A stretch of DNA of 64,000 bases from Fodinisporobacter ferrooxydans. GTDB taxonomy: Bacteria; Bacillota; Bacilli; Tumebacillales; MYW30-H2. Below the pieces are notes generated by a model that did no database searches, was not told the origin of the DNA, and was given only the letters and a program-made list of their open reading frames with translations. The stretch covers positions 4,109,501 through 4,173,500 of the forward strand of contig NZ_CP089291.1 of NCBI RefSeq assembly GCF_022818495.1. The letters run 5' to 3'. Within the stretch, counting starts at the first letter, position 1. Each line of letters opens with the position of its first letter. Below, in pieces: positions 2,858 through 35,296 of the stretch. The position numbers and the translations under genes are program-made.

Positions 2858-3688
2858 TTATACAGGTTTACTAGCTTTGTAAATACCTAAAACGCGGATT
2901 TTATGACCTAACATACCAAGAATAGAGAGTGCTTTAGACATACACTCGTCTGTTTCTCCAGCTTCAACATCCAAATAGAACTGGTATGTTCCAAGTCTCG
3001 TCTTAGTCGGCCGAGATTCTATCCATGTCAGATTAAGATTTAATACAGAAAAAATGTTCAGGATGTTTGCAAGTGCTCCTTTGTACTCCTGACATGGAAT
3101 AATTAACAGCATAGTTTTATCAGGGAAATCTAACGGTTCCTTCCCCTTAGTCACAACCACAAAGCGAGTGTGATTTACAGCTGTGTCTTGGATTTGATCA
3201 GCAAGTATTTGCAATCCAATTCGATTCGCCGCCCATGCGGATGCTACTGCACCCACATCAGTTCTACCTGATTTCTTTGCTTCTTCCGCAGCAGATGCTG
3301 TGCTCTCAAAGTGTTTAACAGTTGCTCCAATTTTTTTTATGAAGCTTCTACACTGGGCAATAGCAGGTGGAATAGACCATACCTCTCGAATATCACTAAT
3401 CTTGGCCCCTGGAATACCAAGTAAGCACTGTGTGATGGATAAAGTGATTTCTCCCTGCACGAACAAATCAGCACTTTGAGTAATACGATCTAAAGTGAGG
3501 TTTATTGAACCATCAATCGTGTTTTCAATCTGTACAACACCTTTGTCAATCATGCCTGAATCTAATCCATCCAGAACATCTACTATAGTTTGAAACGGTA
3601 ATAATTCCACATATTCATTGGAAGTATAACGGGAAGCTGCTTGTTCACTGAACGTACCAGCAGGTCCCAAATAACCAACTTTCTTCAT
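2858..3688 (-). CDS. pheA: prephenate dehydratase
   Basis: The enzyme converts prephenate to phenylpyruvate, the last committed step to phenylalanine, in the cytoplasm. The 276 residues comprise a periplasmic-binding-like catalytic domain (YLGPAGTFSEQAA at the N-terminus; NHTRFVVV near residue 170) and a C-terminal ACT domain with GALANILNIFS and ESRPTKTRLGTYQFYLDV. The GAL and ESRP motifs bind phenylalanine, so feedback inhibition is probably kept. Length is normal for the monofunctional Bacillus-type enzyme. ATG 3688 has a GGAGCG ribosome site. It lies last in the minus-strand run behind gap. Its product is the most plausible 2-oxo acid for the LeuA-like enzyme at 13.4 kb, although it may also simply serve phenylalanine synthesis. 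Confidence 0.93.
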   Translation of the reverse strand: MKKVGYLGPAGTFSEQAASRYTSNEYVELLPFQTIVDVLDGLDSGMIDKGVVQIENTIDGSINLTLDRITQSADLFVQGEITLSITQCLLGIPGAKISDIREVWSIPPAIAQCRSFIKKIGATVKHFESTASAAEEAKKSGRTDVGAVASAWAANRIGLQILADQIQDTAVNHTRFVVVTKGKEPLDFPDKTMLLIIPCQEYKGALANILNIFSVLNLNLTWIESRPTKTRLGTYQFYLDVEAGETDECMSKALSILGMLGHKIRVLGIYKASKPV

Positions 3689-8041: not shown

Positions 8042-8659
8042 TTATTTAGATTTAGCACTAGTGAGACTTACTCCTTTATGTAAAGTAGTGGTTAAGTGTA
8101 TATTTCTTGATTCATATTCATTAATACACTCAATGTCCTCGAGGGTTTGGGCAATATCATCTAGATTGAGAATATATTTCCTCTTATAGTGTTGATCAAT
8201 AATAGCAGGCAGTTTACATTCTTCAATACTAATAGTTTCATTTTCTAGATCAATTTTAATCAATGTTTTAGGATTACGACTTAGGATACTCCACAATGAT
8301 TCAATTCCTTGCTCGGTCGTTTTTAATGGCAGCAGGTCGTTAATAATTGCATTTTTATAAAAAATATCACCAAAACTTTGTGCAATAACAACTTTAAAAC
8401 CATAGTCTTTGATCGCCCAAACCGCATATTCTCGTGATGAACCAGTAGCAAATTCACGTCCAGCAACTAAAATAGTAGCACCAGAGTAACTTGGATCGTT
8501 TAATACAAAGGATGGGTCTAGACGCCAATCACCAAACAATGATCCACCATGTCCAATACGTTTTGGTTGATAGCAAAAGCGTGCAGGAATAATCTGATCC
8601 GTATCAATATTGTTTCTCAACAAAGGAAGACCGAATCCACTAATTTGTTCTCTGCTCAT
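8042..8659 (-). CDS. LeuD-like small subunit of an isopropylmalate-isomerase-type dehydratase
   Basis: Forms a heterodimer with the LeuC-like subunit and supplies the swivelling substrate-binding domain. Motifs are NNIDTDQIIPARFC near the N-terminus and GREFATGSSREYAVWAI around residue 70. Ordinary LeuD has GSSREHA, so the His-to-Tyr change sits in the conserved substrate loop and may alter specificity. The length (205 residues) is normal. ATG 8659 follows GAGGAAGG. The gene lies 18 bp behind leuC. Confidence 0.9.
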   Translation of the reverse strand: MSREQISGFGLPLLRNNIDTDQIIPARFCYQPKRIGHGGSLFGDWRLDPSFVLNDPSYSGATILVAGREFATGSSREYAVWAIKDYGFKVVIAQSFGDIFYKNAIINDLLPLKTTEQGIESLWSILSRNPKTLIKIDLENETISIEECKLPAIIDQHYKRKYILNLDDIAQTLEDIECINEYESRNIHLTTTLHKGVSLTSAKSK

Positions 8660-8677
8660 TTAATCCTTCCTCCATTA

Positions 8678-10078
8678 TTATAAATCTGATGGACAAGCAA
8701 TTCGCCCCATGATCGCACTGGCTGCTGCCACAGCAGGTGAAGCAATATGCGTCATTGCACCTGTTCCCTGTCGTCCCTCAAAATTTCGATTACTGGTCGA
8801 GACAGATCGTTGCCCTTCCCTCATACTATCTTCATTAAGACCACAACACATTGAACAACCCGGTAAAGAACGGAAGTCCGCCCCAGCCTCTTTGAATATT
8901 TTATCCAGTCCTTCACGAATTGCCTGGTCTCGCACTTTAATGGAGCCAGGAACGATCACCATATCCACATTTAAATAAACAGATCGCCCCTCCAAGATTC
9001 CTGCAACAACTCGCAAATCCTCTATGCGTCCATTAGTACAAGATCCGATAAATACTTTATCTATCAAGATGTCTTGGAGAGATTGACCTGGCTTCAGTTT
9101 CATATATTCGAGAGCACGCTTAGCTGCCTGTTGCTGACTTGTATCACTATAATCAGTGAAATCTGGAATTCTTTCATTGAAACAGATATTTTGAGACGGA
9201 TTTGTACCCCATGTAACGTTCTCATTGACTACGGCGGCATCAATTACAATTTCTTTATCAAAAATTGCGTCAGAATTGCTTACAAAAGTACGCCATCTTT
9301 CAATTTCTTCCTCTAAAGGTGGACGCCCATTGGATACGAATATCTTACGTAGATAGTCTATGGTAACGTCATCAACACCTATAATTCCTGCACTTGCACC
9401 TGCTTCTACTGACATGTTACACAATGTCATACGAGCTTCCATGCTGAGCGAATGAATTGCATTGCCTGTATATTCTATGACATACCCAATACCACCACCT
9501 GTACCTATGTGGCGAATAATATACAGTGCCAAATCTTTTGCTGAAATGTTTGCTCGTAGACTATTTTCTACTGTGATACGCATAGACTTGAACTTTTGAA
9601 ATCTTAAAGTTTGGGTTGCCAACACGTGTTCAACTTGGCTTGTGCCAATACCAAACGCAAGTAAAGCCAATGCGCCATGCGTAGTTGTGTGTGAGTCACA
9701 GCAGACTAGTGTTGTACCAGGAAGCACAAGCCCCTGCTCAGGTGCAATTACGTGTGTAATACCTTGACCAGGTTCACCGAGCTTGTATAAAGGGATACCA
9801 AATTCAGAACAATTATGACGCAATAAATCAACCTGTTGTCTGCGTAGCACATCACCTTGTAGTGCTTCAATTGAACGAGTTGGCGTGTTGTGATCTTCGG
9901 TTGCTACAGTTAAATCTGGCCGTCGCACTATCCGTTTATCAGCACGCAAACTATCAAACGCTTGAGGAGTATTAATTTCATGCAACAAATGCATATCAAA
10001 ATAAATCAAATCCTCAGTATCTCCTAAATGCTTCACACAATGGGACTGCCAGATTTTTTCAAGTAAAGTATTAGCCAT
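8678..10078 (-). CDS. LeuC-like large subunit of an isopropylmalate-isomerase-type dehydratase
   Basis: An aconitase-superfamily [4Fe-4S] enzyme that would move the hydroxyl group of a 2-alkylmalate to the 3-position. The 466 residues retain the cluster cysteines C347 (GSCTNGR), C408 and C411 (GCSMCCG), the substrate motif TEDHNTPT, and NRNFEGRQG. It overlaps the MFS transporter gene upstream by 8 bp. The residues that select the side chain cannot be assigned by eye. The neighbouring LeuA-like gene lacks the leucine-feedback domain and no leuB follows, so a dedicated role on a different alkylmalate, for example benzylmalate, is more likely than leucine synthesis. Confidence 0.92.
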   Translation of the reverse strand: MANTLLEKIWQSHCVKHLGDTEDLIYFDMHLLHEINTPQAFDSLRADKRIVRRPDLTVATEDHNTPTRSIEALQGDVLRRQQVDLLRHNCSEFGIPLYKLGEPGQGITHVIAPEQGLVLPGTTLVCCDSHTTTHGALALLAFGIGTSQVEHVLATQTLRFQKFKSMRITVENSLRANISAKDLALYIIRHIGTGGGIGYVIEYTGNAIHSLSMEARMTLCNMSVEAGASAGIIGVDDVTIDYLRKIFVSNGRPPLEEEIERWRTFVSNSDAIFDKEIVIDAAVVNENVTWGTNPSQNICFNERIPDFTDYSDTSQQQAAKRALEYMKLKPGQSLQDILIDKVFIGSCTNGRIEDLRVVAGILEGRSVYLNVDMVIVPGSIKVRDQAIREGLDKIFKEAGADFRSLPGCSMCCGLNEDSMREGQRSVSTSNRNFEGRQGTGAMTHIASPAVAAASAIMGRIACPSDL

Positions 10079-16842: not shown

Positions 16843-17215
16843 TGGGTAAGTAGCCCTGGGGAATTTCACCACAAGGCTCTCTCAGAACCGGACTTGAACC
16901 TCTCAGCTCATCCGGCTCCCATTATCCAGCCCAACTTAGAAACCCCATCTCCCACTGCACGAATAGCGTTGGCTCTCTCTGAGCAATCCTGCCAAGCCAG
17001 TCCAACGCTCGCTTGCGCCGCTTTCTATATCTTTTATACTTGCCATCAATGCTCGATTCATGCGTCTGTACACGGAGTACAGTTCCGATTTGTAAAAGCG
17101 TCCGTAGTAATTCACCCAGCCTCTGAGCACTGGATTGAACATTTTCGACAGGTCTTCCAAGGTCTTATCAGATTTTAGCTGTACATACCAATCACGAATT
17201 GTCTGTCGCATAGCT
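16843..17215 (-). pseudogene. 3' stub of a group II intron with the maturase C-terminus
   Basis: The minus-strand frame ending at 16936 encodes the domain-X end of an intron reverse transcriptase (FNPVLRGWVNYYGRFYKS). It then shifts frame: the alternative frame continues RALDWLGRIAQREP. Downstream, 16918-16885 folds as domain V (GAGCCGG...CCGGTTC), and the intron closes near 16843 with GGGCTACTTACCC. Everything upstream, including the catalytic RT domain, is missing where the IS21-type element begins at about 17233. It is inactive. Confidence 0.8.
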
Positions 17216-27790: not shown

Positions 27791-27958
27791 AATTATTGCC
27801 ATTCCTTTCGCTTCGCTCAAGGCACAAAACAGGATGAAATTGTTGTGCTTGTAGCGACTTTTTTTATTCTAAACGCATAGGGGTACCTCGTTAACTACAA
27901 ATCACGTGGAGGTGAGTGGGCTATTCCAGTTGTGGAGTGACCGCATAATTATATGTGG

Positions 27959-29653
27959 TCGAGTAGGCGGGGCCTCGCCGTTCGCGGCTTGCGCCCCTTC
28001 CCCCTCACAGATCCGTACGTGCGCAATTCACGCATACGGCTCCTCACATCATCATTCACAGATTGGTTTAGCCGTAGATATTGACGTAGATTTTGGGTTT
28101 TGGCAATTTGAATTTCCCAAGCATTTCTCGAAAATTCTCCCAAGTAAAACTTTTGCGCTGGCTTCTGCGGTTTAGCCACTTATACATCAGATTAATCGTT
28201 TGGTCGTAAAAGGAGTGAATCATCTTGAAGTTGTCCGTTATCCCGTAGTAGCGATAGTGTCCTGCTAGCTTGGAGCGTATCGTCCTGAGAAATTCCTCTT
28301 GTTCCATGTGCCGATTAAACCTGATCCACGTCTTCATGGCTTTCATCTTTTGTCTGAATTTCTTCCCGCTCGTTTTACGTTTGACGCGGAAAGCGCCCCT
28401 TTGGCTTTTGGAACAGTAATGGGTGAATCCCAGAAAGACGAATGTTTCCGGTTTTCCTTCCCCTCGCCTCTTCCTATTCGTCTCCGCAAAACGTCCGAAT
28501 TCGATGATTTTCGTTTTCTCTTCCGCTATGCTAAGATTGAATTTACTCAACCTGTTCCGAAGTGCTGCATAGAATCTTTCTGCATCGTCTCTATATTGGA
28601 AGCAGCATACGAAATCATCGGCAAAACGCACCATTTCAGCCTGACCCTTGCAATGCTTCTTCACCGCCACTGCAAACCAGATATCCAGCACGTAATGTAA
28701 ATATACGTTCGCAAGTATGGGTGAAACCACCGACCCTTGCGGAGTACCTTCTTCGGTTGGCTCGAATTCGCCGTCCTCTTGTATACCTGCTTTCAGCATA
28801 CGTCTCACCAGACGGTGGATGTTCGGGTCCCCTATTCGCAAGTTCAGGAATTTCATTAACCATTCGTGGTCGACGTGATTGAAGAAACCCTTAATGTCTG
28901 CATCCACTACGTAGTTTATTTTTCCTCGTTCGATGATCACAGTCAGCTTCTTCAGTGCATCGTGCATGCTTCGTCCCGGGCGGAATCCATACGAGAAATT
29001 CATGAAGTCTTGTTCATAAATCGCTTCCAGCACATTCTTCAGCGCGTCTTGCACCAGCTTGTCTTCATAAGCAGGGATTCCAAGCGTGCGCATGCTTTTC
29101 TCATCCTTGGGAATATAGGTTCTACTGGCGGGTTGCGGTCTGTAGCTTTTCTGCCTCAACCGCTTTTCCAGATTCTCCACATTGGCTTCCAGATTTGCCT
29201 CGTACGCTTCTTTCGTAACTCCGTCGACACCCGTTGCCTTTTCCGATTTCATCTTTCTGTGGCTTTCCATTAACGTTTGCGCGTTAATGAAGTGCCCGAT
29301 GGAGGTAAACCGCAGCTTCGGGTCGGCTTTGGCCATCTCTGCTATTCTTGCTAATTTCGTTTCCATTCTTCTCCACCTCGGTGTGTGGTAAATGTTTCCT
29401 TACCAAGATCGATTCTGTGTCGCCTGCCTTTCCTCCACCAGCATTACACCGGCTTCATTGGTAATACGCGGCGATCCGACTCCCTGACTGCCATTTGGCT
29501 TCCTTACGTTTTACCGCTTGTCTGCCATACTCCTGCAGTTGTTCCTAAAGAGTACTCGACTGTAGAAGAGCGTCAGGGCCTCCCGAGTTGCTAAGTAACC
29601 ATTGGTATACATGCCTGGCTCTTCGACCCCGGGGAAGCTCCTTCAGACTAGTA
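27959..29653 (-). mobile_element. group II intron, possibly 5'-truncated by IS630
   Basis: On the minus strand the intron encodes a full RT and ends with domain V at 28042-28009 (GAGCCGTATGCG, TGAA loop, CGTACGGATCT). A GC-rich domain VI follows, with CTACTCGAC near 27959. About 290 nt of structured sequence precede the RT start. That is short for complete domains I-III, and the IS630 element abuts at 29654, so the 5' end may be missing. The RT lacks an HNH endonuclease domain, as in group IIC and some other retrohoming introns. Confidence 0.75.
28068..29366 (-). CDS. ltrA: group II intron reverse transcriptase/maturase
   Basis: A 432-residue RT. It contains KATGVDGVTKEAYE (RT0), YSYGFRPGRSMHDAL-like FSYGFRPGRS, DADIKGFFNHVDH (first Asp), EGTPQGSVVSPILANVYLH, and the catalytic pair in VRFADDFVCCF. 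The thumb/domain X ends with LRTIRSKLAGHYRYYGI. No C-terminal HNH endonuclease is present. The frame is intact, so the protein could still act on this or related introns even if the RNA is damaged. Confidence 0.93.
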   Translation of the reverse strand: METKLARIAEMAKADPKLRFTSIGHFINAQTLMESHRKMKSEKATGVDGVTKEAYEANLEANVENLEKRLRQKSYRPQPASRTYIPKDEKSMRTLGIPAYEDKLVQDALKNVLEAIYEQDFMNFSYGFRPGRSMHDALKKLTVIIERGKINYVVDADIKGFFNHVDHEWLMKFLNLRIGDPNIHRLVRRMLKAGIQEDGEFEPTEEGTPQGSVVSPILANVYLHYVLDIWFAVAVKKHCKGQAEMVRFADDFVCCFQYRDDAERFYAALRNRLSKFNLSIAEEKTKIIEFGRFAETNRKRRGEGKPETFVFLGFTHYCSKSQRGAFRVKRKTSGKKFRQKMKAMKTWIRFNRHMEQEEFLRTIRSKLAGHYRYYGITDNFKMIHSFYDQTINLMYKWLNRRSQRKSFTWENFREMLGKFKLPKPKIYVNIYG

Positions 29654-32255: not shown

Positions 32256-33897
32256 TCAGACTTGGAATGTTATCGCCTGCTCGCTGTACCCCATCGCATG
32301 GTATCCTTTCAACCTCTTCTTGTACATACGCATAAACGTGGGAACCTGAATATCCACATAATCGTAAACTTGAACCTCGTGTTTTCCCTCGTAAAGTCGA
32401 TGAAGTCTGCCTGCGTATTGTTGCAACGTTCCCTTCCAGGAAATCGGCATCACCAAAAACAGCGTATCAAGGCGGGCATCATCGAACCCTTCCCCAATAA
32501 ATCGGCCGGTGGCAAGCAGAACTCGTTCTTGATCGCCAGGAATAGAACGAATCTGTTCCTGTATCGCCTTCCACTGCTTTTTTCCCATTCCGCCACGCAG
32601 TACGATAACATTTTTGGCGAACCCCTGTAGTTTACTCTCGAAATATTCCAGATGAGATGTGCGATCCGTTAGCAATATCGGCGACCGCATGGATTGAGCT
32701 TTATAAAACTCGGGGTTTTGAAAAGCAGCCATACGAATAAACTGGTTGATTTGTGAAGATGACAAACCCACTTTGTCCACATACAGCATGTTGCTAAGTA
32801 CAAATTTCATATAAGAAGGAAGCGGTTCTTTCAGAAGAAGTGGTTTCTTCTTGTCCATCGGCAAATTCCAAGGTTTGATTTCACCTTCTTCTTCCATTGC
32901 CGATTTTGCAATACGAATGACATCACCTTTTCGTTCTGCCTCGCGAACAATTGCTTCCACCTCAGATAACGTCATTTTTCTGAGTGAGGACAAGAAAACC
33001 CACTGATCTTTGTAAGGCTCGTAGTGTTTGTCAACAAACAAAGCGTTGCCTTCCTTGCCTGGCAACCTTTGCAGTGGCAAAGCAATCAAATTGCCAAGTT
33101 TCTTCTCTTTCGGTAGTGTATCCTGATTGGGAAACATTCGGTCATACGAGTCCAAACCTAGTTGATGGCGTTTCTCCAAAGTAAGGGTCAATAGGCTGCT
33201 GCCTAACATTCGCGCTGTACGGGCTGGGACCGGCTTATTAAAAAAGATCCACACATGACCCCCGTTCCCCCGAGCGCGAACGTTCCAATGCAGCAGGAAC
33301 ATTCAATTTTTCACAAGTTTGCAGAAAAGCCGCTGTATCCTCCTGCCAGCTTGCTTTATCGAAATCGATCGCGAGAAACCAGCATGTCTCATCAAGCAAA
33401 AGCGGATAAATCCCGATTGTAACAGGTCTATTCTCTTCCTGCAAATGGGACTTGATGACTTCATCCGTCAAAGGCAGAAAATCACCCCAAATGATTTTTC
33501 CATTTTCTTTTCCGAGCCATTCCTTTTGCGGAAAATACGCTGGTTTTCCCGTTCTATCGAATCCGCGTACTGCGTAAACATCTTCCCTACCTTTAAAGTA
33601 ACTGCGAAACAATCTGATTTTTTCTTCAATATTCGATTGTTTTGTCACCATACTCGAATCAGCAGCATTTTCCGAACAAGTTGACTCCTTTGCCATCGTC
33701 TCTGGTAAAGACTTGTTATCACAATAACGCTTTTCATGCGTTTCAGAATGGAGCAATTGTTTCAAACGTTCAATTTCGGCCATTAATCTAACATTCAGTT
33801 CTTGCAACCGATTGTTTTCTGCCCGCAAACGTTCCATTTCATCAGGATCATAAATATCCAATTTCAATTGAGCCGATTCATCACGCCTTTTTGCCAT
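32256..33897 (-). pseudogene. TOTE-type primase-helicase, frameshifted and internally deleted
   Basis: The first frame (33897-33238) begins with a coiled coil. It then has the archaeo-eukaryotic primase-like module: KGREDVYAVRGFDRTGKPAY and CWFLAIDFDKASWQED. One extra G in the G5 run at 33267-33271 shifts it. The next frame continues GNGGHVWIFFNKPVPAR and LDSYDRMFPNQD. After NPEFYKAQSMR it jumps to the second RecA-like lobe (VIVLRGGMGKKQW, LLATGRFIGEGFDDARLDT, QYAGRLHR). The first helicase lobe with Walker A and DEAD box is deleted. TOTE proteins are linked to conflict with mobile DNA. This copy is dead. Confidence 0.82.
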
Positions 33898-34215
33898 AGT
33901 GCCTCCACCTATACGCATCCGGAAAATGTGTCTTAAGAAACGATTTATTCCCTGCTTCTGAAAGTTTTCCCCTACCTGATTAATTGTTTGTAATTCTCTT
34001 GAAAAATCCTTTTTTACCCTATACTACCATAGAATTTTTACCTTATTTATCCAAATGATTAAAGATATCTTCTCCTCATGACTGGACAGGTCTATAGACG
34101 GGATGTGGCGGTGTTCGCTGAAATAGACACAAAAAAGGATTTTCTTGAATCGTATTTTCCAAGGTGTTTTTCGAAACCATTTTAACCCTGATATTCCATT
34201 GTTTTGATGCCTTGC
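33898..34215. other. spacer without a recognised gene
   Basis: Only a 34-codon plus-strand frame at 34078-34182 (MTGQVYRRDVAVFAEIDTKK) stands out. It has no convincing ribosome site and may be a leftover of a longer transposon or phage gene. The remainder is AT-rich. Confidence 0.35.
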
Positions 34216-34898
34216 TTATTTCCTTTTTATTAAAATTGCTTCCCAATCTTCAGGGAAACCAATTCGGCCTAATTCTAAAACATCCTTATACTCTGAAAAT
34301 AATGCCTCTAACCGGGTAATAAAGTCTCTCCATCTACTTCGATCAGGAATCATTTCCTTAAGTATATATAAGTGCGCAAAAATTTTATTTTGTTGAATTC
34401 CTAGTTTTTTGGACTTTTGATCCAGTCTCGGTTTACTTGTAAGCGGTCGATTATAAAGTCTACCATAGTGTGCAAAAATATTACGCACATAGGACAGACA
34501 TTTTAGCCAACTTTCAAGATAGATTGCAGGTACTGGATAATTGTTTTTAGCAATATGACTTCTATCTTCGTTTTTCATATTGGAAAAAAGTTTTGATAGT
34601 GCTCCAAATGACAATACTTCAACGGCTACCCAGATAGGTATTTTTCCTTCGTATTTTTCGAAAAGAGATGGTCAAATTCATACAATGCGTAGATTTGATT
34701 AAATGTTACGCCCGGTTGGTATTGGTCATTTTGCTTGAGACTTAATCCATATGCGCTGAGGCGGTAGTAATTGATTTTCTTTAACGTTCGGATTGCGAAA
34801 TCTTCATCTTCAATAATGAGACCCCGACTCTTTAAAATTTGTATCTGTTCTTCAAACGTAGCAGGAGGCTTAAGTGAAAGAAAGGGATTTTGTTCCAT
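34216..34898 (-). pseudogene. Abi_2 family (AbiD/AbiF-like) abortive-infection gene, internally deleted
   Basis: The first frame (from ATG 34898, GGAGGAATCT site) encodes the typical start: FEEQIQILKSRGLII, then KKINYYRLSAYGLSLK and YALYEFDHLF. It then breaks. In another frame the C-terminal half follows: IPIWVAVEVLSFGALSKLFSNMK, ending with the HEPN RNase motif RNIFAH in LSYVRNIFAHYGRLYNR. Roughly 60 residues between the halves are missing. Abi_2 proteins block phage growth through HEPN RNase activity. Here the toxin cannot be made in full length. Confidence 0.82.
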
Positions 34899-34912
34899 AG
34901 ATTCCTCCGGAT

Positions 34913-34966
34913 AAAAAAAGGCCCACCTTGGTACGCATTGTTAAGAGGCGTGGTGGGATCTGTTGC
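34913..34966 (-). ncRNA. abiF-like structured RNA upstream of the Abi_2 gene
   Basis: Starting about 6 nt after a consensus promoter, the transcript reads GGCAACAGAUCCCACC... and closes with GGUGGGCC plus seven U. The outer stem CCCACC/GGUGGG (34952-34957 with 34922-34927) and inner ACGC/GCGU enclose a CUCUUAACAAU loop, giving a compact RNA of about 54 nt ending in an intrinsic terminator. Position, size and shape fit the abiF RNA motif described upstream of Abi_2 genes. The RNA probably restrains the protein and limits its transcription. It is intact although the protein gene is broken. Confidence 0.65.
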
Positions 34967-34970
34967 CTTT

Positions 34971-35000
34971 ATTATACTGGAGTTTGTATGACACCGTCAA
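34971..35000 (-). promoter_or_regulatory. sigma-A promoter of the abiF-like RNA
   Basis: TTGACG (35000-34995) and a perfect TATAAT (34976-34971) are separated by 18 bp. This is the strongest consensus promoter seen in the window and would drive constant high expression of the small RNA. Confidence 0.8.
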
Positions 35001-35296
35001 CACTCCGCACTCATAACTGAATTACAAAAAATCAATTTGCCCTTAACCCAAGGTTAAAGGGGAAGACATCTAACTTCTTGAAGAATTAAAACAACCGAAT
35101 GCATAGGCTTTTTTACATTTTTGATGACCACTTGACTTCCCCACCATCCAGAGCTAAACTAACACCAATTCATCGGAATGGCTGGAGTTCGTCGCTATGG
35201 CGCGAAAAAGTTTGTCACAGTTGTACCTTCCAGTTGGAAGGCTTTTTGGGGTGTTCGCATCGAATACGAACACCGTCAGCCCAGTCGTGGCGCGGC
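35001..35296. other. spacer between accessory zone and spo0A, with a plus-strand terminator-like stem
   Basis: CCTTCC-AGTT-GGAAGG followed by CTTTTT (35226-35247) would terminate plus-strand transcripts. A second stem, GTGTTCG/CGAACAC, follows at 35251-35273. A plus-strand open frame through here runs into spo0A antisense and is not credible. This is the junction to the conserved backbone. Confidence 0.45.

Follow-up and report, generated by a model that had tools for sequence, protein, structure and literature searches.

We investigated a predicted abiF RNA that lies ahead of a broken Abi_2 gene in a 64,000-nt stretch of the Fodinisporobacter ferrooxydans genome (hereafter, the window). We consider it probable (roughly 0.8) that this is a decayed AbiF (AbiD/F, Abi_2) toxin–antitoxin locus, with an RNA that could still act in trans to neutralise AbiF. 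The letters of the window show the RNA family, the promoter match and the break in the toxin gene, and sequence comparison places the RNA in a large class of toxin-less abiF RNAs of bacteria and phages with covarying predicted structure. The structure of these RNAs is probably constrained, suggesting that selection acts on them. By analogy with characterised systems, the RNA of the window is probably still made and could neutralise an AbiF arriving on another element.

The abiF locus of the window

The features of the locus are listed below in the order in which they are read on the minus strand.

34971–35000, minus strand: sigma-A type promoter match, TTGACG-18 nt-TATAAT (11 of 12 consensus bases), with the −35 box TTGACG at 35000–34995, the −10 box TATAAT at 34976–34971 and an 18-nt spacer between them
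34913–34966, minus strand: predicted abiF RNA, a sequence-based call of ~54 nt, a length that depends on the start position inferred from the −10 box
34959–34964, minus strand: AACAGA leader, recurrent by leader-motif counts across relatives and outside the Rfam model
34921–34957, minus strand: abiF motif RF03085 by covariance model, with an outer 6-bp stem, an inner CGC/GCG stem and a CUCUUAACAAU loop
34913–34919, minus strand: seven U after the abiF stem, likely a terminator tail judging from the sequence
34904–34908, minus strand: GGAGG, ribosome binding site of the abiF gene by sequence
34626–34898, minus strand: abiF gene, N-terminal piece, an ORF of 90 aa that is AbiF-like to about residue 79 (Pfam, PADLOC, identity)
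34216–34659, minus strand: abiF gene, C-terminal piece in another frame, with the HEPN motif RNIFAH (Pfam, PADLOC, identity)

The TTGACG-18-TATAAT site was the better of two promoter-like sites in 34600–35100, where shuffled sequences held 1.0 on average (sd 0.8). The Rfam model RF03085 (abiF) aligned over its full length (1–37 of 37) to 34921–34957 with 45.5 bits, above the gathering score of 37 bits that marks membership in the abiF RNA family, and this was the sole abiF match reported in the 4.86 Mb genome, by Rfam's model as well as by model R1 (see below). The RNA also lies just upstream of a same-strand Abi_2 (AbiD/F) gene, as members of the family do, though here the gene is broken; the order on the minus strand is abiF stem, seven U, GGAGG and then ATG at 34898. 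Folding energy was unremarkable (−12.4 kcal/mol, z = −1.52; 18 of 200 shuffles equally good), so the case for an abiF RNA comes from the covariance model and not from folding energy.

The N-terminal piece matched positions 2–44 of 184 of Pfam Abi_2 (E = 6.2e-10) and 4–74 of 277 of PADLOC AbiD, with 64–76% identity to four Paenibacillus AbiF proteins, and the C-terminal piece, open for 147 codons, matched positions 119–184 of 184 (E = 1e-21) and 139–275 of 277, with 76–78% identity to four Paenibacillus AbiF proteins. Positions 45–118 of the 184 in Abi_2 are absent, and ~67 residues are missing relative to Paenibacillus AbiF; a single deletion, of a length that is not a multiple of three, would account for both the gap and the frameshift. 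The locus thus lacks the intact Abi_2 protein with a HEPN motif that a functional AbiF toxin–antitoxin system has, and a whole-genome search reported no further Abi_2 in this genome. Since both halves are otherwise open, are 64–78% identical to Paenibacillus AbiF and are separated by one lesion, AbiF was probably inactivated recently, in which case an intact RNA is expected even without selection. We therefore rejected the intact RNA of the window as proof of selection, the break being too young for decay.

A sequence-only reading of this stretch had described a near-perfect promoter and an abiF-like RNA; the consensus match agrees with the former and the covariance-model scan bears out the latter. 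Its claim that the RNA ends in a C/G-rich hairpin and seven U upstream of Abi_2 agrees with the letters: the seven T are present after the stem, at 34919–34913. An automatic terminator scan made no call at the abiF stem (the loop limit of the scan is 8 nt, and the loop here is longer). The internally deleted, frameshifted Abi_2 gene behind an intact RNA was confirmed by the two pieces in different frames and the loss of positions 45–118, and the further claim of a remnant RNA–protein toxin–antitoxin system is supported by the covariance-model match to abiF in front of the disrupted Abi_2/AbiF gene.

Immediately downstream of these abiF pieces, a gene for a TOTE-type archaeo-eukaryotic primase (32256–33918, minus strand) is also split across two frames, which match positions 1–129 and 122–229 of Pfam AEP-TOTE. 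With both genes split, decay seems to affect the entire defence island; the broken abiF locus is flanked on its opposite side by spo0A. Elsewhere in the window, two group II intron matches exceeded the Rfam threshold, at 16845–16920 and 27958–28044 (minus strand).

Toxin-less relatives in bacteria

A survey of the class Bacilli (398 genomes) with the Rfam abiF model found 22 abiF RNAs in 21 genomes, 13 of which had a match over the gathering score. Ten of these RNAs preceded an intact AbiF gene, one (that of the window) preceded a broken gene, and 11 had no adjacent AbiF in the flanking DNA examined, one of the latter (L043) retaining a short remnant. The 11 toxin-less RNAs came from 10 genomes; a search found no Abi_2 anywhere in seven of them, and three had Abi_2 elsewhere. 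Within the order of the window (14 genomes), we found four abiF RNAs, comprising one intact system, the broken one of the window and two toxin-less RNAs, both in genomes where no Abi_2 was found; the genus and family of the window were represented in the collection searched by its own genome alone. Intact relatives had the same arrangement of promoter, RNA, ribosome binding site and ATG as the window.

Searching the GTDB genome collection by pattern yielded 92 stretches. Pooled with the model-based survey and deduplicated by sequence, these amounted to 105 bacterial sites, 14 of which were cut by contig ends. The 91 sites left consisted of 38 with an intact AbiF, 13 with a broken, partial or complex arrangement (including the complex cases L085 and L099), 39 without AbiF (including five with short AbiF remnants and the chance match L071) and one with AbiF on the opposite strand. 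L071, from Mycobacterium deserti, was rejected as an abiF RNA because it is a chance pattern match that reached 13.1 bits with R1. Promoter-like sites (at least 9 of 12 consensus bases) preceded the RNA at 30 of the 38 intact, 10 of the 13 broken or partial and 25 of the 39 toxin-less sites, compared with 7–10% at random places in the same loci. A blastn search of E. coli genomes gave no match to the abiF core.

Several bacterial loci had unusual surroundings. Three Clostridia-type contigs (L101, L121 and L129) carry a toxin-less abiF RNA in related surroundings, and in L101 it comes after two genes that resemble an AbiEi/AbiEii pair by eye, a candidate assignment. In two strains of Segatella copri (L055, L072, L077 and L106), abiF RNAs lie at the very ends of contigs, and these copies probably belong to a repeated element that broke the assembly. 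Candidatus Pacebacteria (L078) has an unusual divergent layout: a full-length AbiF frame lies 14–890 nt upstream of the motif and on the other strand. Neobacillus notoginsengisoli (L099, reverse strand) has two abiF RNAs before one intact AbiF, their cores 485 nt apart, and the first has a weakened stem.

Toxin-less relatives in viral loci

Viral sequences contained 40 stretches matching a 22-nt core pattern and at least 120 matching a 17-nt core; the reversed core matched one. Abi_2 was encoded in six of the 154 distinct viral loci among the matches listed, leaving 148 without it. Counted by the 17-nt core, the matches listed comprised 144 sites in 102 context groups, five of them with Abi_2. 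Toxin-less here means that no Abi_2 match occurs in the available DNA, which extended at least 1000 nt downstream at 124 of these 144 viral sites among the matches listed. The longest flanking helix was under 5 bp at 13 of the 144 sites among the matches listed, so some viral sites are chance matches.

To represent each context group without Abi_2 once, 97 toxin-less viral RNAs among the matches listed were aligned without gaps; 20 of the 97 cores lie inside an ORF of at least 100 aa. Outside the searched core, 66 of the 97 RNAs among the matches listed had a Watson–Crick stem of at least six pairs, a proportion that fell to 8.4% when 3′ flanks were swapped and to 1.0% after shuffling. With G–U pairs allowed, 81 of these 97 had a helix of at least six pairs, with 54 distinct inner stem sequences among them. 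Across the 97 RNAs among the matches listed, pairing cells (85.1% versus 70.4% in shuffled alignments), cells changed on both sides (172 versus 62.5), further pair types (35 versus 27.6) and the covariation score (0.400 versus 0.163) all exceeded the shuffled values, and none of 500 shuffles reached the observed value in any of the four measures. The number of pairs with any both-sided change was not distinct in the same 97 RNAs among the matches listed (eight versus 7.6; 324 of 500 shuffles). Three inner-stem pairs were invariant, being set by the search pattern. Pairing fell to 32–48% when the partner was shifted by one to three columns.

A pyrimidine–purine (Y–R) loop pair, absent from the Rfam structure line, covaried as well: among the 97 viral RNAs of the matches listed, it was UA in 51, CG in 44, UG in two and CA in none. 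In the toxin-less class that we propose here, structure is thus kept by compensatory change, as seen in the 97 viral RNAs among the matches listed.

The sequence-only reading had further held that the RNA outlived the toxin. For this locus, the young break with its one lesion gives that claim no support as an outcome of selection; in a more general sense, which that reading did not foresee, it is supported, as RNAs without an intact AbiF are common (12 of the 22 RNAs in the Bacilli survey and 148 of the 154 viral loci among the matches listed, with covarying stems).

On a 213 kb phage contig (L226), positions 8371–9472 bring together a ROOL RNA, tRNA genes and an abiF core within ~1.1 kb; the abiF core is below the Rfam gathering score.

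Model R1 and named phages

We built a covariance model, R1, solely from the 97 toxin-less viral RNAs among the matches listed. R1 matched the window at 34910–34964 with 65 bits (E = 1.6e-19), and the RNA of the window thereby belongs to the toxin-less class as recognised by a model from toxin-less RNAs alone. R1 also matched all 21 Bacilli survey loci examined, whether linked to AbiF or not, and gave no match at E up to 1 in a control locus (L307). Rfam's own model reached its gathering score in 14 of the 18 viral loci scanned.

The leader extends the resemblance. AACAGA-like leaders preceded 32 of 38 AbiF-linked RNAs, 28 of 38 bacterial toxin-less RNAs (L071 dropped) and 27 of 81 viral toxin-less RNAs (those with a helix of at least six pairs among the matches listed), whereas control windows gave 3–18%, with one at 14 of 38. 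AbiF-linked and toxin-less RNAs therefore have the leader in common, and mostly also the segment after the inner stem.

From blastn matches in 50,697 phage records, 16 regions were chosen, and R1 confirmed 14 of them at 34.9–53.4 bits:

Bacillus phages phiNIT1 and SBSphiJ: RNA among tRNA genes
Enterococcus phages phiSHEF4 and EhiS_268: RNA between terminase genes
Staphylococcus phage SapYZU04 and Lactobacillus phage P1: RNA matched by R1
Streptococcus phage Javan129 and Sulfurimonas phage SNW-1: RNA overlaps an annotated hypothetical gene
Salicola phage CGphi29 and Rhizobium phage Pasto: RNA matched by R1
Aeromonas phages PZL-Ah8 and PT2: RNA before a capsid assembly gene
A faecal phage and Mycobacterium phage Thibault: RNA matched by R1

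Two blastn matches were rejected as carriers, Mycobacterium phage TM4 (no R1 match) and Streptomyces phage ZL12 (just 9 bits with R1). In the first 12 named phage loci, no Abi_2 was found within the DNA scanned, and Rfam's model reached its gathering score in only two, so the named-phage copies depend mainly on R1. Several of these phage groups are, we take it, strictly lytic. The placement of the RNA varies among phages, from among tRNA genes to between terminase genes or before capsid genes. We scanned downstream genes at 10 of 47 suitable viral sites, and nine matched a PHROG family; these families include endolysin, portal, major head protein, tape measure, endonuclease and methylase. Such diverse neighbours favour an RNA that acts in trans.

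The loop pair was U–A in all seven loci of Bacillota phages and C–G in all four of Pseudomonadota phages, host phyla being assigned partly from record titles and partly on our own presumption, and U–A in 23 of 24 AbiF-linked RNAs grouped under Bacillota. The few AbiF-linked RNAs of Pseudomonadota show both forms, and this fit to the host phylum may therefore merely follow base composition.

In the faecal phage (L191), the abiF RNA at 3001–3038 is followed ~300 nt on by a DUF3800-VIII RNA (3344–3407, 76.7 bits), which may be another toxin-less RNA from a defence-type family.

Divergence between relatives and the terminase locus

Since sites were found through exact core patterns or a covariance model, which biases them towards conservation, the core cannot serve as conservation evidence, and we counted only RNA positions outside the search pattern. 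In 16 sister pairs (13 of them viral), these free RNA positions differed at 44 of 346, compared with 764 of 2904 in the flanks. Each pair was the most diverged of its flank-sharing group, with flanks 3–40% different, and other groups were excluded. The three bacterial pairs gave 4 of 66 in the RNA and 131 of 559 in the flanks. Two of the 16 pairs ran opposite, and one has a largely changed stem.

The RNA is not always kept at a given phage locus. Among 13 Enterococcus-type loci found through the terminase small subunit protein, an R1 RNA was present in two, one of which was the query phage, and we rejected the idea of invariable retention on these grounds. The remaining terminase loci carry different inserts, mostly behind a similar promoter, and 121 phage records had a terS match versus only 14 Enterococcus records with an abiF blastn match. 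With the RNA in two of 13 loci and other inserts elsewhere, the abiF RNA is an accessory cassette at the terminase locus, as is usual for counter-defence genes, yet dispensable. A search of 12 Enterococcus-type phage loci with Rfam by E-value gave one match, abiF at 31.1 bits, below the gathering score.

In these loci (L183, L188 and L313–L323), the intergenic region between the terminase genes measures 597 and 711 nt in two annotated phages and is shorter elsewhere (e.g., L319). Most begin with an extended −10 type promoter, followed by varying structured-looking inserts that include the abiF RNA, so that the region looks like an exchangeable small-RNA cassette site. After the promoter-like site downstream of terS, L315 and L321 have what appears by eye to be an abiF-like variant, in which the outer stem and a GCACC-type segment are kept and a longer hairpin replaces the loop; R1 does not match it.

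Alternative explanations

The RNA of the window could be a passive relic, intact only through the recent inactivation of the toxin, functionless and bound to decay. We give this slightly less than an even chance, since the gene has a single lesion, both halves are open and 64–78% identical to intact AbiF, and the adjoining TOTE primase gene is split too, in an island that seems in decay. For relics, however, the toxin-less RNAs of bacteria retain too many promoter-like sites (25 of 39, control ~7%), and in sister pairs the RNAs diverge less than their flanks, both overall (44/346 versus 764/2904) and in bacteria (4/66 versus 131/559). The relic account can hold for the copy in the window even with selection acting on the class overall. 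That the broken gene is itself alive, frameshifting or internal initiation giving a short HEPN protein still under RNA control, seems to us highly improbable: the C-terminal piece retains RNIFAH and 147 open codons, but ~67 residues of the domain are absent in any frame.

Two further accounts concern the class. The hairpin and U run might be kept merely as a convenient transcription terminator, in line with the U runs that follow the stem in the window and many relatives and with a copy (L025) just downstream of a same-strand gene. This appears quite unlikely, because termination needs neither the AACAGA leader that toxin-less and AbiF-linked RNAs have in common nor a covarying Y–R loop pair, and phage copies L181–L183, L186 and L187 lack a U run immediately behind the stem. 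It is somewhat easier to imagine, though still doubtful, that the RNA core binds another widespread protein, with AbiF as one user and the toxin-less copies serving that other role. Most viral loci (148 of 154 among the matches listed) are indeed toxin-less, and toxin-less copies occur in genomes without any Abi_2 found (7 of 10). Against this, the leader and, for the most part, the segment that follows the inner stem are common to AbiF-linked and toxin-less RNAs, the flanking genes vary so widely that they point to no second partner, and AbiF is the partner for which binding has been demonstrated in the available text of PMC12373285 and PMC12737573.

Interpretation and comparison with known systems

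On the reading that we prefer, a decayed AbiF locus with a potentially active RNA, a sigma-A type promoter would drive a short abiF RNA terminated by its own hairpin and U run, and read-through would formerly have produced AbiF, a HEPN ribonuclease restrained by the abiF RNA. One deletion would then have taken ~67 codons and shifted the frame, leaving no full toxin and an untouched promoter, RNA and U run. By analogy with the C. difficile system, transcription would mostly halt between the RNA and the toxin gene, and the RNA would neutralise AbiF in trans through direct binding (PMC12373285, in part).

For the class, it is an evenly balanced proposal from sequence comparison that abiF RNAs are widespread free-standing counter-defence: phage copies would soak up host AbiF and so block abortive infection, and toxin-less chromosomal copies would immunise cells against AbiF-bearing plasmids and phages. 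With the same even odds, this decoy role would cover phages of Bacillus, Enterococcus, Staphylococcus, Lactobacillus, Streptococcus, Aeromonas, Salicola, Bradyrhizobium, Mycobacterium and Sulfurimonas. If abiF RNA does circulate alone in phages as a decoy, antitoxin RNA mimicry would be a general strategy, and AbiF would be a danger that phages commonly meet. The RNA is present in SBSphiJ and phiNIT1, two isolated phages that infect Bacillus subtilis, making the decoy idea directly testable. We found no earlier proposal of phage abiF RNAs as decoys in the literature searched (titles, abstracts and passages, mainly open-access).

Among the closest known systems is AbiF/RCd22 of C. difficile phage phi027, in which, according to the available passages of PMC12373285, the AbiF gene lies downstream of an RNA, RCd22, with two abiF motifs, both under one sigma-A promoter, and transcription mostly ends ahead of the gene. 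RCd22 neutralises AbiF in cis and in trans via direct binding, and stem mutants are inactive whereas compensated mutants are active (same passages of PMC12373285). Like AbiF/RCd22, the window has RF03085 behind a sigma-A type promoter match, a likely terminator before the gene and an Abi_2 HEPN toxin gene downstream; it differs from the system in these passages in having one motif rather than two, a U run after the abiF stem itself and a broken toxin. The structure of an AbiF–RNA complex has been solved, and AbiF has been linked to Cas13 and proposed as its ancestor, with the antitoxin RNA as the source of crRNAs (available parts of the review PMC12737573). The Prevotellaceae AbiF–ncRNA complex (Zilberzwige-Tal et al., as cited in passages of PMC12373285 and PMC12737573), also a proposed Cas13 ancestor, resembles the present case in its HEPN AbiF family and in an antitoxin RNA bound one per monomer, but its toxin is intact and toxin-less RNAs are absent from its description as cited. 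Excerpts of PMC12165695 report RF03085 as co-occurring with AbiD/F as an RNA “of unknown function” and linked to the origin of Cas13, and these excerpts describe no toxin-less RNA. In the lytic cyanophage S-CREM1, an abiF sRNA was reported at 51.6 bits, with mention of three phage genomes in Rfam, and the available text of that report draws no tie to AbiF neutralisation (PMC9964418).

By analogy, two kinds of RNA mimic offer precedents for a possible phage decoy role of abiF RNA. Pseudo-ToxI is an RNA mimic in phage PhiTE evolving against ToxIN (PMC3475682, in part); it belongs to another RNA family (ToxI repeats) and arose in one phage expanding its repeats, whereas the putative abiF decoys extend across many phage groups. 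Racrs (RNA anti-CRISPRs) are, like the phage abiF RNAs, solitary RNA mimics in phage genomes, and they engage a defence protein, but in the passages available their target is CRISPR-Cas and the mimic is a CRISPR repeat (PMC10651486).
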